From Methylobacterium mesophilicum SR1.6/6 (lineage in GTDB: Bacteria > Pseudomonadota > Alphaproteobacteria > Rhizobiales > Beijerinckiaceae), in contig NZ_CP043538.1 of the NCBI RefSeq assembly GCF_000364445.2, positions 4,545,447 to 4,609,446 of the forward strand: a DNA stretch of 64,000 nucleotides, read 5' to 3'. The notes beneath the pieces are model-generated. The model did not search any database, was not told the origin of the DNA, and worked only from the letters and a program-made list of their open reading frames with translations. Both the position numbers and the translations under genes were made by a program. Below are positions 38,775 through 47,671 of this stretch, piece after piece. Position 1 is the stretch's first letter, and every line of letters begins with the position of its first letter.

Positions 38775-39242
38775 TCAGGTCTCCGCGCGCCACGCGTCGC
38801 GGAGGCGGTCCTTCAGGCCGGCGGGGAAGAGGTCGGGACCGCCCGGCACGTCGAGCCCGTCCAGATCCCACCACCGCGCCATGCAGGCAGTGCCGGAATC
38901 CTCGTGGAAGACGAAGCGCTCCTGCCCGTCGAACCGTCCCGGCGGCAGGGCGACGGGGAACAGGAACAGCACCTCGTGCCCGACCTGCCCCTCGTGCGTG
39001 AAGATGTTCTCCATGACGCGGGGGCCGCCGAGCACCGAAACGGTGACGCCGAGCTCCTCCTGGAACTCCCGGATCAGGGCGCCCTCGACCCGCTCGCCGA
39101 ACGCGACGCTGCCGCCGAGGGGCCGGACGCCTTTCAGCCGCCCGTCATCCGCGCGGACCTCCGCCACGAGCAGGCTGTTGCCGCGCCGGGGCAGACCCAG
39201 CGCTTTGACGCGAATCTCCGCAGGGGGCCGCCAGACCGTCAT
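38775..39242 (-). CDS. Nudix hydrolase
   Basis: 155 residues from MTVWRPPAEIRVKALGL. The Nudix box is complete: GGSVAFGERVEGALIREFQEELGV, with the metal-binding REFQEE. Nudix enzymes cleave nucleoside diphosphate derivatives, and the specificity here is not predictable. The sequence continues VLGGPRVMENIFTHEGQVGHEVLFLFPV. The start was chosen over a longer frame because it begins the conserved N-terminal strand. Confidence 0.9.
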   Translation of the reverse strand: MTVWRPPAEIRVKALGLPRRGNSLLVAEVRADDGRLKGVRPLGGSVAFGERVEGALIREFQEELGVTVSVLGGPRVMENIFTHEGQVGHEVLFLFPVALPPGRFDGQERFVFHEDSGTACMARWWDLDGLDVPGGPDLFPAGLKDRLRDAWRAET

Positions 39243-39362
39243 CCCGCACGGGCTAGCCCGTCGTCGGCGAGGCCGCAACGGCCCGGTGCCCCGCGCGCCG
39301 ATCCACGGCAACAACCGGACACACGGTTGACGGCCCGCCCCGCTACGGCCAAGCTGTGCGCG

Positions 39363-39530
39363 ACGGTTCCCCTCGGGGATCAAAAGGGAACGCTGTGAGG
39401 GGTTCGCCCCGAAGCCGCGGCTGCCCCCGCAACTGTAAGCGGCGAGCCCTTCACCACCACGTCACTGGGTCACCCCGGGAAGACGGTGCGAGGGCGGCGA
39501 CCCGCGAGCCAGGAGACCTGCCGTCAGCCG
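39363..39530 (+). ncRNA. Cobalamin (B12) riboswitch
   Basis: The region contains the cobalamin-riboswitch core in order: GGTTCCC pairing with AAAAGGGAACGC, the GCCGCGGCTGCCCCCGC / AACTGTAAGCGG block, a CACTGGG-type element, GGGAAGACGG, and the B12 box AGCCAGGAGACCTGCCGTC at 39507-39525. It is upstream of a TonB receptor, the classic target of B12 repression. About 290 bases separate its end from the receptor's start codon, which is longer than usual. Confidence 0.9.
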
Positions 39531-39753
39531 TGGTCACACGCGAAACGCGCCGGGCGGGGTGTCCTGGCGGGTGTCGAGGCGACGCCAGTCCCGAGGGGAG
39601 GCGGCCGCCGAGGCCTCGTTCGCGGTGACGTGCCACAGCAAGCGCGCCCGCGACGCCGTTCCCCATGCCCGTCTCCGCCGTCCCGAACCCCTCGAGCCCT
39701 GTCGCAGGACGCCGTCGCGCGCCCGCACAGGCAGAGGCTACCAGACAGCGAGC

Positions 39754-39776
39754 GCATTGTAATGTTATTACAATGC
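39754..39776. promoter_or_regulatory. AT-rich perfect inverted repeat, Zur-like operator
   Basis: GCATTGTAAT, GTT, ATTACAATGC: two perfect 10-base arms around a 3-base spacer, in otherwise GC-rich sequence. It lies 49-71 bases upstream of the TonB receptor start and about 225 bases downstream of the riboswitch. The shape and the ATGTTAT core resemble Fur/Zur-family operators, and the zinc-type genes nearby point to Zur. The identity of the regulator is inferred. Confidence 0.6.
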
Positions 39777-39824
39777 TTGTAGGACGCGGGGGCCGGCGCG
39801 CGCCGCGCACGGACCGCTTTCCCC

Positions 39825-42008
39825 ATGTCTCCATCGACCCATCGCTCCTGCCTCGGCGGGCGGGCCCCGCTCTGCGGCGTTCTCCTCGCGCTCCTCGCCA
39901 GTCCGGCCGCCGCACAGGAGGTGGTCACGCTGGATGAGCTGTCGGTCGCGGGCGCGGGCGGCGACCCGAGCCGCCTCCCGCCGAACGGGCTCAACCTGCG
40001 CACGCCTGACCGGACCGCGAGCCGCCTCGGCCTGACGCCGCTGGAGACGCCGGCCAGCCTCGACATCGTGTCGGGCGAGACCGCGCGGCTGCGCGGCCAG
40101 GACACGATCGCCGAGGCCGTGACCCAGGACGCGACCGGCATCACCACCATCGCGGCGCCCGGCAACGGCAACGGCGCGTTCACGTCCCGCGGCTTCGCCG
40201 GCCCGAACTCGATCCAGCAGCTCTACGACGGCACGCGCTTCTACGTCGGCGCCAACACCGTGACCTTCCCGTTCGACACGTGGAACGTCGAGCGGATCGA
40301 GGTGCTGCGCGGGCCGTCCTCGGTGCTCTACGGCGACGGCGCCATCGGCGGCGTCATCAACGTGGTGCCCAAGAAGCCGGTCTTCGTGCCGATCAACGCC
40401 GCCCGCGCGGTGATCGGCACCGACGGGGTCGCGCGGCTCGCCCTCGATTCCGGCGGCCCGCTGGGCCAGGCTGAGTACGGCGACACCTTCGCGTACCGCC
40501 TCAACGTCAGCGGCAACCGCGCCGACGGCTGGATGCGGCCGGAGGGCGATTTCCGCAACCTCGCGGTCTCCGCCGCCCTGCTGTTCCGGCCGAGCGCCGA
40601 CCTCGCCTTCACCCTGAGCCACGATCTCGGCTACCAGGAGCCCGCCCGCTACTGGGGCACCCCGCTGGTCGAGGGACGGATCCCGGATCTCATCCGGTTC
40701 AACAACTACAACGTCCGCGACGCGAAGATCACCTGGGCCGACAACTGGACCCAGCTCAAGACCGAGTGGTCCCCCTCGGCCGACATCACGATCCGCAACA
40801 CCGCCTACCGGCTGACCAGCCGGCGCCACTGGCTCGACGTCGAGCAGTACAGCTACAACCGCGGCACCGGGCTCGTGGACCGGGGCGACTACCTGGAGAT
40901 CTACCACAGTCAGGAGCAGGTCGGAGACCGTCTCGACGCGACGTTCCGAGGCGACCTATTCGGCCTGCGCAACCAGTTCGTGGCCGGTTTCGACGTGAAT
41001 CACATCGACTTCCGCCACACAAACAACTTCTACTTCGACCAGACCACGAGCGTGCCGCTTACCGGCTACGATCCGGGCCTCTTCCCGCAGAACGGCCGGG
41101 CGCGCCCGGCCTACGCGACGCAGACGAGCCAGGCCTCTGTCTTCGCCGAGGACCGGGTGATCCTGTCGGACAAGCTCTCGTTCCTCACGGGCGTGCGCCT
41201 CGACGTGCCGACGCTGAACCGCGAGGACCTGCAGACGGGATCGCGGTTCGAGAAGACCTATCGGGCGCTCGGCTACCGGTTCGGCCTCGTCTACAACCCG
41301 ACGCCGGACAGCGCGCTCTACGCCCAGTACAGCTTCGCCACCGACCCGGTGAACAGCCTGATCACGCTGTCGCAGTCGCTGGCGGGCTTCAAGCTCGCGA
41401 CCGGCGATCAGGTCGAGATCGGCGCCAAGGGGCTGGCCTTCGACGGCGCCCTCGAATGGACCGTCGCGGGCTACCGGATCGTCAAGGACAACCTGATCTC
41501 GGCGATCCCCGGCCAGCCGACGCTGTCCACGCAGGTGGGGAGCCAGTCCTCGCAGGGCTTCGAGCTGGCGCTTGGCTGGCGCTTCGCGCCGGGCTGGCGG
41601 CTCGACGGCAACCTCGCGCTCCTCCACGCGCAGTACGACCGGTTCGACCAGACGGTGAACGGCGCCACGGTCTCGTATGCCGGCAACCAGCCGATCGACG
41701 TGCCCGAGCGCGTGGCCAATCTCTGGCTGACCTGGGACGTCACCCGCGACTGGACCGCGCGGGTCGGGCTGCAGAATGTCGGGCAGGTCTACAGCGACTT
41801 CGGCAACACGGCGCGGCGCCCAGCCTACAACCTCGTCAACGTGGTCCTCGACCATCAGGTCACGGCGGAGTCGCGCCTGTCCGTGCGGGTCTACAACCTG
41901 TTCGACAAGGTCTACGCGATCTCGGGCAACGCCGTTAACGGGGTCGGGACCAACTGGCTGCTCGGGCGCCCGCGCTCGGTCGAGGTCGCCTACACGGTGA
42001 CGTGGTGA
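39825..42008 (+). CDS. TonB-dependent siderophore-type outer-membrane receptor
   Basis: 727 residues. A signal peptide (GVLLALLASPAAAQEV) is followed by a plug domain (LETPASLDIVSGETARLRGQDTIAEAVTQDATGI..., EVLRGPSSVLYGDGAIGGVINVVPKKP) and a beta-barrel ending LLGRPRSVEVAYTVTW. The plug sequence is that of the FhuE/FpvA-like siderophore branch rather than BtuB, so metal-chelate uptake is more likely than cobalamin despite the riboswitch upstream. The next gene overlaps its stop, so it is co-transcribed with a PepSY-TM protein. Substrate unknown. Confidence 0.85.
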   Translation: MSPSTHRSCLGGRAPLCGVLLALLASPAAAQEVVTLDELSVAGAGGDPSRLPPNGLNLRTPDRTASRLGLTPLETPASLDIVSGETARLRGQDTIAEAVTQDATGITTIAAPGNGNGAFTSRGFAGPNSIQQLYDGTRFYVGANTVTFPFDTWNVERIEVLRGPSSVLYGDGAIGGVINVVPKKPVFVPINAARAVIGTDGVARLALDSGGPLGQAEYGDTFAYRLNVSGNRADGWMRPEGDFRNLAVSAALLFRPSADLAFTLSHDLGYQEPARYWGTPLVEGRIPDLIRFNNYNVRDAKITWADNWTQLKTEWSPSADITIRNTAYRLTSRRHWLDVEQYSYNRGTGLVDRGDYLEIYHSQEQVGDRLDATFRGDLFGLRNQFVAGFDVNHIDFRHTNNFYFDQTTSVPLTGYDPGLFPQNGRARPAYATQTSQASVFAEDRVILSDKLSFLTGVRLDVPTLNREDLQTGSRFEKTYRALGYRFGLVYNPTPDSALYAQYSFATDPVNSLITLSQSLAGFKLATGDQVEIGAKGLAFDGALEWTVAGYRIVKDNLISAIPGQPTLSTQVGSQSSQGFELALGWRFAPGWRLDGNLALLHAQYDRFDQTVNGATVSYAGNQPIDVPERVANLWLTWDVTRDWTARVGLQNVGQVYSDFGNTARRPAYNLVNVVLDHQVTAESRLSVRVYNLFDKVYAISGNAVNGVGTNWLLGRPRSVEVAYTVTW

Positions 42009-43471
42009 GCCTGCCGCGCCGGCTCGGCAAGGCGGGACGGCGCTGGCTGCTCCTGTTCCACCGCTGGGCCGGGATCGCCGCGGGGCTGTTCTTCGCGCTG
42101 TGGATCGGCTCCGGGCTGGTGATGCTCTACGTGCCGTTCCCGGCGCTCACCGAGGCCGAGCGGCTGTCACGGCTCGGCCCGATCGCCTGGGACCAGGTTA
42201 CGGTCGCGCCGGACGCGGCGCTGCGGGCCGCCGGCCTCAGCGGCGTGCCGGCCGCCTTCGGCCTGGAGATGCGGGGCGGGGAGGCCGTCTACCGGATCGC
42301 CGACCGCGACGGCGCCCGGGCCACGGTCTCGGCGCGGACCGGCGCGCGGCTCGGGCCGGTGACGCCCGAAGACGCGCTGCGTCTCGCGGCCGATGGGATG
42401 CCGGACGCGCGCGTCGCGCCGGTCGAGCGCGACCAGTGGACCGTCACGGCCCGGTACGACCCGCTCCGCCCCTTCCTGAAGGTCGCCCTCGGCGACCCGG
42501 CGGGGACCGAGCTCTACGTCTCGCGGGTCACCGGCGCGATCGCCCTCGACACGACCCGGTCGGAGCGGGCCTGGAACTGGGTCGGCGCCGTGACGCACTG
42601 GATCTACCTCACGCCGCTGCGCGCCCGGGCGGAGCTGTGGCGGACGGTCCTGCTGTGGCTGTCGGGCCTCGCCGCCCTGGGGGCGCTGACCGGGCTGGCG
42701 ATCGGGATCTGGCGCCTGCGCCTCCGGAGGCGCTACGCGGGCGGGGCCGTCACGCCCTATCGCGGGCTCGCCCGCTGGCACCACCTGTTCGGCCTCGCCG
42801 GCGGGATCGGGCTCAGCACCTTCATCCTCAGCGGCTGGATCTCGATGAACCCGAACCGCTGGTTCGCGTCGACCGCGGCGCCCGCCGCCATCCGCACCAC
42901 CTATGCAGGACAGCCACAGGGCCTCGGCCTCACCGCCGAGGCCCTGCGCGGCTTCGCCGGGCCCAAGATCCGGGCGCTGCGCTTCGTCGCCCTTGGCGGC
43001 TCGTGGTGGATCATCGCCGACGGCCCGGCCGGCGCTTCGGCGCGGCGCGCGGATGACGGCGCGGCGCTCGACGCGGCCGCGATCGCGCGGGCCGCCGGCC
43101 CGGCGCTGCCCTGCGGCCTGCGGGCGGTCGCGGAGATGACCGCCTACGACCTCTACTGGTATCCGCACGGCTCCGATCCGCGGCCGCTCCCGGTGCTCCG
43201 GCTGCGGTTCGGCGACCCGGACGCCACCTGGCTCCACGTCGATCCCCGGGACGGGACCATCGTCCAGCGCCTGGACCGCTCGGGCCGGATCAACCGCTGG
43301 CTGTTCGACGCGGCGCACCGCCTCGACCTGCCCGGTCTGACCGGCAGCCGCCCGCTCCACGACGCGGCCCAGTGGATCCTGAACCTCCTGGCCGCCGGGA
43401 TCGCCGTCACGGGGATCGTCGCGGGCTGGCGCAGGCTGCGCCGCGGCCTGCCGGTCCCGAAACCTCGATGA
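42002..43471 (+). CDS. PepSY-TM domain membrane protein
   Basis: 489 residues. An N-terminal helix (LLFHRWAGIAAGLFFALWIGSGLVML) and two later hydrophobic regions (about 205-240, 255-285) plus a final one (LLAAGIAVTGIVAG) mark a four-helix PepSY-TM protein. Conserved His residues (HRWAG, THWIYLT, WHHLFGLAGG, HRLD) could bind haem; related proteins reduce metal-chelates after uptake. Tandem GTG starts (42002, 42005) overlap the receptor's stop, so the two are coupled. Confidence 0.85.
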   Translation: MVSLPRRLGKAGRRWLLLFHRWAGIAAGLFFALWIGSGLVMLYVPFPALTEAERLSRLGPIAWDQVTVAPDAALRAAGLSGVPAAFGLEMRGGEAVYRIADRDGARATVSARTGARLGPVTPEDALRLAADGMPDARVAPVERDQWTVTARYDPLRPFLKVALGDPAGTELYVSRVTGAIALDTTRSERAWNWVGAVTHWIYLTPLRARAELWRTVLLWLSGLAALGALTGLAIGIWRLRLRRRYAGGAVTPYRGLARWHHLFGLAGGIGLSTFILSGWISMNPNRWFASTAAPAAIRTTYAGQPQGLGLTAEALRGFAGPKIRALRFVALGGSWWIIADGPAGASARRADDGAALDAAAIARAAGPALPCGLRAVAEMTAYDLYWYPHGSDPRPLPVLRLRFGDPDATWLHVDPRDGTIVQRLDRSGRINRWLFDAAHRLDLPGLTGSRPLHDAAQWILNLLAAGIAVTGIVAGWRRLRRGLPVPKPR

Positions 43472-45628: not shown

Positions 45629-45642
45629 GGACACCCACACAG

Positions 45643-45657
45643 TGTTATATCGTTTCA
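45643..45657. promoter_or_regulatory. Operator-like AT-rich motif upstream of znuD
   Basis: TGTTATATCGTTTCA. Its reverse complement, TGAAACGATATAACA, differs by one base from the motif upstream of zigA (45786-45800) on the other side of the same intergenic region. This shared, mirror-placed motif, and a third related sequence (GAAACGTTACA at 45717), suggest one regulator binding several sites. Zur is the natural candidate given the genes. Confidence 0.55.
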
Positions 45658-45785
45658 TTCTTGCTGCATCGCGATCCAGCGCAAGCGGTAATCCCTGCCC
45701 GCTCGGATGCCATCAAGAAACGTTACATCGTTGCAACAGAATGCAGGGTCTCGCTCTGAAGAGAACCCGCCGACTCGCTTGATTC

Positions 45786-45802
45786 TGAAACGTTATAACA
45801 TC
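45786..45802. promoter_or_regulatory. Operator-like AT-rich motif upstream of zigA
   Basis: TGAAACGTTATAACATC, containing the perfect 8-base palindrome GTTATAAC. It ends 11 bases before the zigA start codon, so it probably covers the promoter or leader. The same TGAAACG-N-TATAACA core appears inverted in front of znuD. Confidence 0.55.
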
Positions 45803-45813
45803 AAAATGGAGAG

Positions 45814-47044: not shown

Positions 47045-47671
47045 TCAAGTGGTCAGTCCCTCGGTCTCGTCCTCGGCCTCGATCTCGGCGTCCGCCTCGG
47101 TCACCTGTCCGGAAGCGCCGGCCGCCTCGGCGAGGCCACGGGCCGCCTTTCGAAGGAGCTTGCGCAGGCGGCGCCGGTCGGTCTTGTCGAGGTGGTCGAG
47201 CAGCTCGGATTCCACCTCCGCCTGGATCTGCTCGATCGCCTGCGCCTTCGCGAGACCGGCCTCGGTGAGCTGAACGCGAACGATGCGCCCATCGCCCGAT
47301 TCGGCCCTGCGCTCGACGATGCCGAGAGCCGCGAGCCGCGTCACCGTCTTCGACGCTGTGGGCGGGCGCACCCGCAGCAGCGCGGCGAGGTCGCCCATCG
47401 TCATCGTCCCAGCGGCGGCCAGGGCCTGCACGACCTGCTCCTGTCCGGCGAACAGGCCGAGCTTGGCCAAACGGTCGCCCGTGCGGGCGCGATGCAGGCG
47501 GGCGGCCTGCACCAGAGCCCAGCCGACGCTGCGGATCCCGGGCGGCCGCATCTTCTTGGACGACAGCGACAGAGGCGCCCTGTCGGCGTCATGACGATCG
47601 CGTTTCTGGTTATCGCCCACCGGAGCGCCCGAGTTCGTGCCGGCGGCCGCCGGATGATCCTGAAGTTGCAC
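47045..47671 (-). CDS. MarR-family transcriptional regulator
   Basis: 208 residues. A winged helix-turn-helix of MarR type (LFAGQEQVVQALAAAGTMTMGDLAALLRVRPPTASKTVTRLAALGIVERRAESGDGRIVRVQLTEAG) is followed by a dimerisation helix and an acidic tail. An N-terminal extension of about 40 residues may not all be translated. It converges on zigA with a 10-base gap. Ligand and targets are unknown; no target operator was recognised. Confidence 0.9.
   Translation of the reverse strand: MQLQDHPAAAGTNSGAPVGDNQKRDRHDADRAPLSLSSKKMRPPGIRSVGWALVQAARLHRARTGDRLAKLGLFAGQEQVVQALAAAGTMTMGDLAALLRVRPPTASKTVTRLAALGIVERRAESGDGRIVRVQLTEAGLAKAQAIEQIQAEVESELLDHLDKTDRRRLRKLLRKAARGLAEAAGASGQVTEADAEIEAEDETEGLTT

Follow-up and report, generated by a model that had tools for sequence, protein, structure and literature searches.

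The window analysed here is a 64,000-nucleotide stretch of the 6.56-Mb, single-contig genome of Methylobacterium mesophilicum SR1.6/6. At the locus of interest a cobalamin riboswitch is followed by a palindrome, a gene for a TonB-dependent receptor and a gene for a PepSY_TM-like inner-membrane protein, which overlaps the receptor gene by 7 bases (Table 1).

Table 1. Features of the receptor locus, in window coordinates.
Feature	Positions	Strand	Details
P1, putative promoter of the riboswitch transcript	39327-39355	+	TTGACG (39327-39332), 17 bases, CAAGCT (39350-39355)
Cobalamin riboswitch aptamer	39347-39539	+	RF00174, 115.3 bits; B12 box 39508-39522; L5 loop CCCCCGC 39424-39430
Candidate partner of the platform block, GTGGTCACACGCG	39530-39542	+	would pair in the ligand-free fold; predicted by sequence complementarity
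P13 hairpin	39548-39569	+	stem CGCC (39548-39551) / GGCG (39566-39569)
Platform block, CGCGGTGACGTGCCAC	39621-39636	+	invariant, 16 bases
Retained upstream start codon	39665-39667	+	matches the receptor start of short-form orthologs in position; out of frame in the window
Putative Zur-type operator	39754-39776	+	perfect 10+3+10 inverted repeat; 19-mer core 39756-39774
P2, putative Zur-overlapped promoter	39757-39785	+	TTGTAA (39757-39762), 17 bases, TAGGAC (39780-39785)
TonB-dependent receptor, CrtA-like	39825-42008	+	PF00593, PF07715; TIGR01783 245.2 bits (cut-off 223.5)
PepSY_TM-like inner-membrane protein	42002-43471	+	PF03929, E 9.8e-06, 26 bits, just under the cut-off of 28.8

The riboswitch is complete, as the initial annotation had it. 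The aptamer covers positions 1-189 of the covariance model with a score well above the gathering score of 31.5, and the B12 box reads GCCAGGAGACCTGCC; only the start given for the element, 39363, was too late, as the aptamer begins about 16 bases earlier. Orthologs of the receptor were collected as matches of at least 55% identity, giving 110 loci in 108 genomes of the genus; some ten additional copies or fragments were left out, and two genomes (G068 and G109) had distant matches only. In all counts the gene start is the start of the tblastn match, which is not always the start codon. An exact B12 box lies within 800 bases upstream in 106 of the 110 loci, and these 106 are used for the leader counts below. 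Of the four loci lacking it, three are truncated by the end of a contig, which leaves 0, 39 and 338 bases to search, and the fourth, L044, is a second copy without a box.

Behind the aptamer, the loop of hairpin P13 contains GCGGGG, which is complementary to CCCCGC of the L5 loop and by that complementarity would form a kissing loop with it. An L5-L13 kissing loop is a known feature of cobalamin riboswitches. The sequence GGGCGGGG is exact in 103 of the 106 leaders, whereas the P13 stem, read by eye, varies on both sides (CGCC/GGCG, CGTC/GACG and CATC/GATG).

The approximately 220 bases between the riboswitch and the palindrome had been described as holding no gene. No protein gene is indeed evident there, but the interval is not empty, because the conserved expression platform of the riboswitch sits in it. 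The platform block is exact in 104 of the 106 leaders and also lies 3' of six of the seven cobalamin riboswitches of the same genome. Its candidate partner is retained in the commonest leader variants. A conserved protein was rejected as an explanation of this conservation: in 27 close orthologs hardly any changes of the synonymous type are seen in the block, and the reading frames that follow 39665 vary in both length and frame. An intrinsic terminator was likewise rejected as the platform, since a consensus scan finds none in 39240-39850. The whole leader folds no better than its shuffles (z -0.14), and its minimum-energy fold lacks the aptamer, a single-sequence result that is uninformative.

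The seven riboswitches of the genome comprise six that precede TonB receptors and one that precedes genes read as cbtBA (loci L001-L005 and L007). It is the last of these that lacks the block. Two of the six receptors are read as BtuB-like, two form a pair of close paralogs, one is of siderophore type, and the sixth is that of the window; all share the platform block.

The palindrome downstream is a perfect 10+3+10 inverted repeat, GCATTGTAAT-GTT-ATTACAATGC, exactly as first reported. Other perfect 10-base arms with spacers of 0-8 exist in the window, all with a G+C content of 70-90%, compared with 30% for the palindrome. Genome-wide the palindrome is unique even at three mismatches. The 6-3-6 core, TGTAAYNNNRTTACA, has two occurrences in the 6.56 Mb, one at this locus and one in front of the genome's single znuA gene, and a reversed-pattern control gave 0 matches. 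The znuA set consists of the own genome and 30 listed loci (109 of the 110 searched genomes had a match), and the motif is found upstream at two mismatches or fewer in all 31 loci examined. Nine distinct sites from this set were built into a matrix. The seeds were picked by a pattern written after both palindromes had been seen, and the matrix is to that extent not independent of them.

The palindrome is the top matrix match in the window, at 27.1, and only five matches exceed 8: the palindrome itself and four in the gap between a ZnuD-like and a ZigA-like gene. Among the 106 ortholog leaders, 80 contain a site scoring 11.8-34.8 (median 26.2; 78 at 15 or more), whereas the other 26 score 0.6 at most. 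The site stands 78-150 bases 3' of the platform block in these 80 leaders. In the controls, 4 of 4240 shuffles and 3 of 209 real control stretches exceed 10; since the real controls reach 12.6, the two weakest leader sites (L026 and L117) are within the control range. The shuffles are first-order chains rather than exact dinucleotide shuffles, and a separate set of 2120 peaked at 23.5.

Given its match to the znuA site of this genome, the palindrome is very probably an operator for Zur, and the metal sensed is most probably zinc, the first of the two metals considered initially. The genome has three Fur-family genes. The presumed zur is the third Fur-family match, beside open reading frames read as znuC and znuB, and no matrix site above 5 is found near this zur/znuCB locus. 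At another Fur-family gene (L120), matrix matches of 17.9 and 25.1 lie at 1904 and 2975, in what appears to be an A+T-richer stretch.

Riboswitch and palindrome thus occur together in 80 of the 106 riboswitch-bearing ortholog leaders, which supports the earlier suggestion that a leader RNA and a repressor may serve one receptor. The leaders have two forms. In the short form, the riboswitch stands directly on the ribosome site of the receptor and there is no Zur box: the block is followed by CCGAGG or a similar site, and the receptor starts 25-29 bases on among the leaders listed. Single-sequence folds suggest that a hairpin starting with the block conceals this ribosome site. In the long form, to which the window belongs, the ribosome site has been lost, and a Zur box with a putative second promoter is present before the true start. 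The window leader accordingly has the aptamer, kissing hairpin and 16-base block in common with the short-form orthologs and with the other riboswitch receptors of its genome, but differs from both of these, in which CCGAGG and then, 26-28 bases farther, the receptor's start come after the block and a Zur box is absent.

By count, 80 leaders have a Zur box only, 20 a ribosome-site motif only, six have neither and none has both. In a rapidly built maximum-likelihood tree that includes 116 receptors, the form changes at least five times, or at least four when only well-supported branches are counted. The exclusion between Zur box and ribosome site is seen in three to four independent comparisons with none contrary, and these are therefore too few for a significance test of mutual exclusion. 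Seven loci without a Zur box (L055, L056, L063, L072, L076, L085 and L090) have a suhB/mmgR small RNA (RF00519) just 5' of the riboswitch.

The long form retains a trace of the short one. At the place where short-form receptors start, 67 of the 80 long leaders have an ATG, where shuffles would predict about 8. In 24 of the 80, including 12 of 17 in one group, this codon is in register with the receptor and no stop intervenes; in the window it is out of frame and begins an open frame of 90 codons (39665-39937). The group concerned (L092-L111, L116 and L117) has receptors of about 60% identity. In its 12 loci with an in-frame, open riboswitch-proximal start, the longer frame includes the Zur box, so that the receptor could be made there with either of two N termini.

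Farther afield, the combination is uneven. In Enterovirga (L216), both the riboswitch and the Zur site are present; the stretch 1991-2502 of this locus contains two back-to-back cobalamin riboswitches on opposite strands, one of which leads to the receptor with the Zur box. Four Sphingomonas loci (38-40% identity) have the riboswitch and lack the Zur site, and neither element is present in L217-L219, three methylobacterial copies that are more distantly related. Among 397 genomes of the order, a strict version of the tandem pattern was found in four, each from the genus of the window, of which nine were sampled; this pattern would miss sites of the kind found in leader group B, described below.

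Two putative promoters flank these elements. The TTGAC of P1 is invariant across 27 aligned close orthologs and recurs at a similar position in three groups, in 82 of their 84 testable leaders (36/36, 24/24 and 22/24), compared with just 1 of 14 in a fourth, long-form group. As for P2, its -35 element would lie inside the Zur box. The TTGTAA and TAG pattern is conserved in groups A (36 leaders) and C (27), whereas group B (17 leaders) has TAcGGAC farther downstream than the P2 -10 element. The proposal that the palindrome governs its own promoter is compatible with the conserved -35/-10-like pair that overlaps it but gains nothing from a simple consensus scan: a sigma-70 scan of 39240-39850 returns no promoter, neither P1 nor P2, so that both rest on conservation.

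The receptor is of siderophore type and not a BtuB, as had been proposed from its plug. It exceeds the TIGR01783 cut-off, whereas the BtuB models remain far under theirs (TIGR01779, 67.2 against 599.7; NF007926, 36.2 against 836). Its nearest named relatives are from Methylobacterium, e.g., M. fujisawaense at 96%. The nearest solved structure is 9rvq, CrtA from Bordetella pertussis, aligned over residues 18-723 with an E value of 2.4e-93; the next, 5fp1, has 2.8e-31.

We compared the CrtA binding-site residues Y130, W265, E337, Q356, H358 and R395 with the aligned receptors. The site glutamate and histidine (E340 and H361) are kept in all 111 methylobacterial and Enterovirga rows and in all five outgroup rows. 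The tryptophan is kept in 101 of the 111 rows and the arginine in 93, and the Tyr/Phe is one position off. Q356 is replaced by isoleucine in all 111, so the cargo need not equal that of CrtA. The receptor is related to CrtA by sequence, and we describe it as CrtA-like without filing it as a CrtA.

The published work on CrtA (also BfrG) states that it imports chelated copper, needs His358, and may be a scavenger of low selectivity, that a PepSY_TM gene lies 3' of it in more than 75% of loci, and that it is under copper control through CruR (PMC12914433). The window receptor shares the binding-site Glu and His and the downstream PepSY_TM gene, but differs in its control, by a B12 riboswitch and a Zur-type site, and in the Q356 to Ile replacement. 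Among our orthologs, a PepSY_TM gene is directly 3' of the receptor in 84 of 106 loci, made up of 74 of the 80 long-form loci and 10 of the other 26. Seven short-form loci without it were checked, and no fixed downstream gene was evident in them.

Taking these observations together, we think it reasonably probable that the locus is a stacked OR switch, in which low B12 sensed through the leader RNA, or low zinc sensed through Zur, turns on a receptor for chelated cobalt and zinc. P1 would produce a long leader carrying the cobalamin riboswitch. With B12 bound, the aptamer and the L5-P13 kissing loop would lock and the leader would block onward expression, whereas with little B12 the platform block would pair with its candidate partner and expression would proceed to the receptor. 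Since the -35 element of P2 would lie within the operator, zinc-loaded Zur would close P2 and zinc shortage would open it. Transcripts from P2 would start 3' of the aptamer and therefore escape B12 control, so that either low B12, as a proxy for cobalt, or low zinc could switch the receptor on. As the two inputs and the relationship to CrtA would imply, chelated divalent metal, cobalt and zinc, is the probable cargo, which the CrtA-like scavenger and its PepSY_TM partner would import.

Because the long form has lost the ribosome site next to the riboswitch, any effect of B12 on P1 expression has to be exerted either ahead of the ribosome site that the receptor itself uses or independently of it, and the steps suggested here are the weakest of the scheme. 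The riboswitch may now gate translation from the retained upstream start codon, and a leader left untranslated may be ended by Rho in the C-rich stretch 5' of P2. C exceeds G between the block and the Zur box in 80 of 80 long leaders; the stretch is not specific, as short-form gene starts are equally C-rich (26 of 26). More speculatively, Methylobacterium (and Enterovirga) may have converted a CrtA-like scavenger from copper to a joint role in cobalt and zinc supply, by placing a Zur promoter 3' of a B12 riboswitch so that the two form an OR switch, with the riboswitch, its ribosome-site platform lost, acting at a distance through translation from the leftover start and Rho-dependent termination. 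This full account we offer tentatively, as a possibility that is rather doubtful as a whole.

The cargo might instead be corrinoids and not metal chelates, zinc control being explained by zinc-starved cells leaning on B12-dependent over zinc-dependent enzymes. B12 riboswitches are classically found on corrinoid receptors, and a zur mutant of Caulobacter is reported to show raised expression of CC0482, which encodes the B12-independent methionine synthase (PMC4176598), so zinc and B12 metabolism do touch. We nevertheless regard corrinoid import as unlikely, since the receptor is siderophore-type and far from BtuB, the metal-site Glu and His of CrtA are invariant, and two other riboswitch receptors of the genome (L002 and L005) already read as BtuB-like from their sequences.

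An arrangement in series, with AND logic, would have no useful P2; Zur bound at the palindrome would be a roadblock to polymerase coming from P1, and expression would need both low B12 and low zinc. The Zur box does lie within the predicted P1 transcript, some 430 bases behind P1, and the failure of the consensus scan to find P2 fits this reading. It is harder to reconcile with the -35/-10-like pair that groups A and C keep across the Zur box and that B has in a shifted position, with znuA sites of the same kind, and with the long-form group that has lost a recognizable P1 motif and kept its Zur box. We consider it quite unlikely.

The long-form riboswitch transcript could also be uncoupled from the receptor, ending before P2 and serving as a separate B12-sensing RNA or acting on the small upstream frame only. 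Such a role would account for the missing ribosome site and for the 56 of 80 leaders in which the upstream start is not in frame and open. However, the riboswitch is always upstream of the receptor, and the in-frame, open leaders noted above, most of all the 12 of 17 in one group, argue for coupling, which makes this decidedly improbable compared with the stacked OR switch.

With three Fur-family genes in the genome, and Fur-family boxes looking alike, the palindrome might belong to an iron or manganese regulator rather than Zur, but this is very unlikely given that the sole other exact copy of the core precedes znuA, that the znuA sites of 30 further genomes match, and that the remaining matches in the window adjoin the ZnuD-like receptor and near-ZigA genes. 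Finally, the alternative raised in the initial annotation, that the riboswitch is a relic of a lost or replaced target gene, would explain the missing ribosome-site platform of the long form but is most improbable, because the riboswitch precedes the same receptor in 106 of 110 loci and homologs in the four Sphingomonas loci, aptamer scores are undiminished in leaders with a Zur box (121.2-138.2 bits in 14 long-form loci, against 123.8-135.2 bits in 15 loci without one), and the kissing loop and block are intact.

A riboswitch and a repressor on one gene are known from Streptomyces nrdABS (B12 riboswitch and NrdR) and from mntP-type genes (metal riboswitch and MntR). The window likewise combines a riboswitch with a protein repressor, but its inputs, B12 and zinc, are different. 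TonB receptors controlled by riboswitches, and others controlled by Zur, are each already known (PMC7689651, PMC4176598). The latter include ZnuK, ZnuL and ZnuM of Caulobacter, with the Zur motif GTTA-N5-TAAC; these are alphaproteobacterial receptors under Zur, as is proposed for that of the window, and the accessible part of the report mentions no riboswitch (PMC4176598).

Regarding cobalt, riboswitch-controlled TonB receptors have been predicted to carry the metal, while a 2021 review has no cobalt-specific outer-membrane receptor confirmed (PMC7689651). Despite this statement, the genus offers an experimental cobalt candidate, IcuAB (PMC2732905), as the TonB receptor IcuA of Methylobacterium extorquens was experimentally tied to cobalt according to two reports (PMC2732905, PMC2773004). 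We set IcuA aside as the identity of the window receptor on a comparison of partner genes only: IcuB is described in those reports as a 243-residue protein of COG5266, whereas the partner here is PepSY_TM-like. The word riboswitch is absent from the main texts on IcuAB (PMC2732905, PMC2773004).

While the component controls are known, we found no description of the B12-riboswitch/Zur stack, or of the two leader forms, in the open-licence literature searched. If the proposal is true, the supplies of B12 (cobalt) and zinc would be joined at one gene by two unlike sensors, one RNA and one protein, which would suggest that the receptor handles both metals. The short and long forms place the same riboswitch, with and without a ribosome-site platform, in one genus, a promoter and operator apparently replacing the platform in the long form. 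This pair provides a direct route to studying how riboswitch control is rewired.

Farther on in the window, on the opposite strand, lies a receptor resembling ZnuD (268.7 bits, under the strict cut-off of 950), together with a COG0523 GTPase that narrowly misses the ZigA cut-off (596.6 against 600). The four further matrix matches (9.5-18.2) are found at 45641-45807, between these divergent genes. Of 70 named loci with limited flanks, 9 have the ZnuD-like gene 3' of the CrtA-like receptor. Beside the near-ZigA gene, at 47045-47671, is a MarR-family regulator with a weak match to the zinc-dependent AdcR (27 bits against 175).
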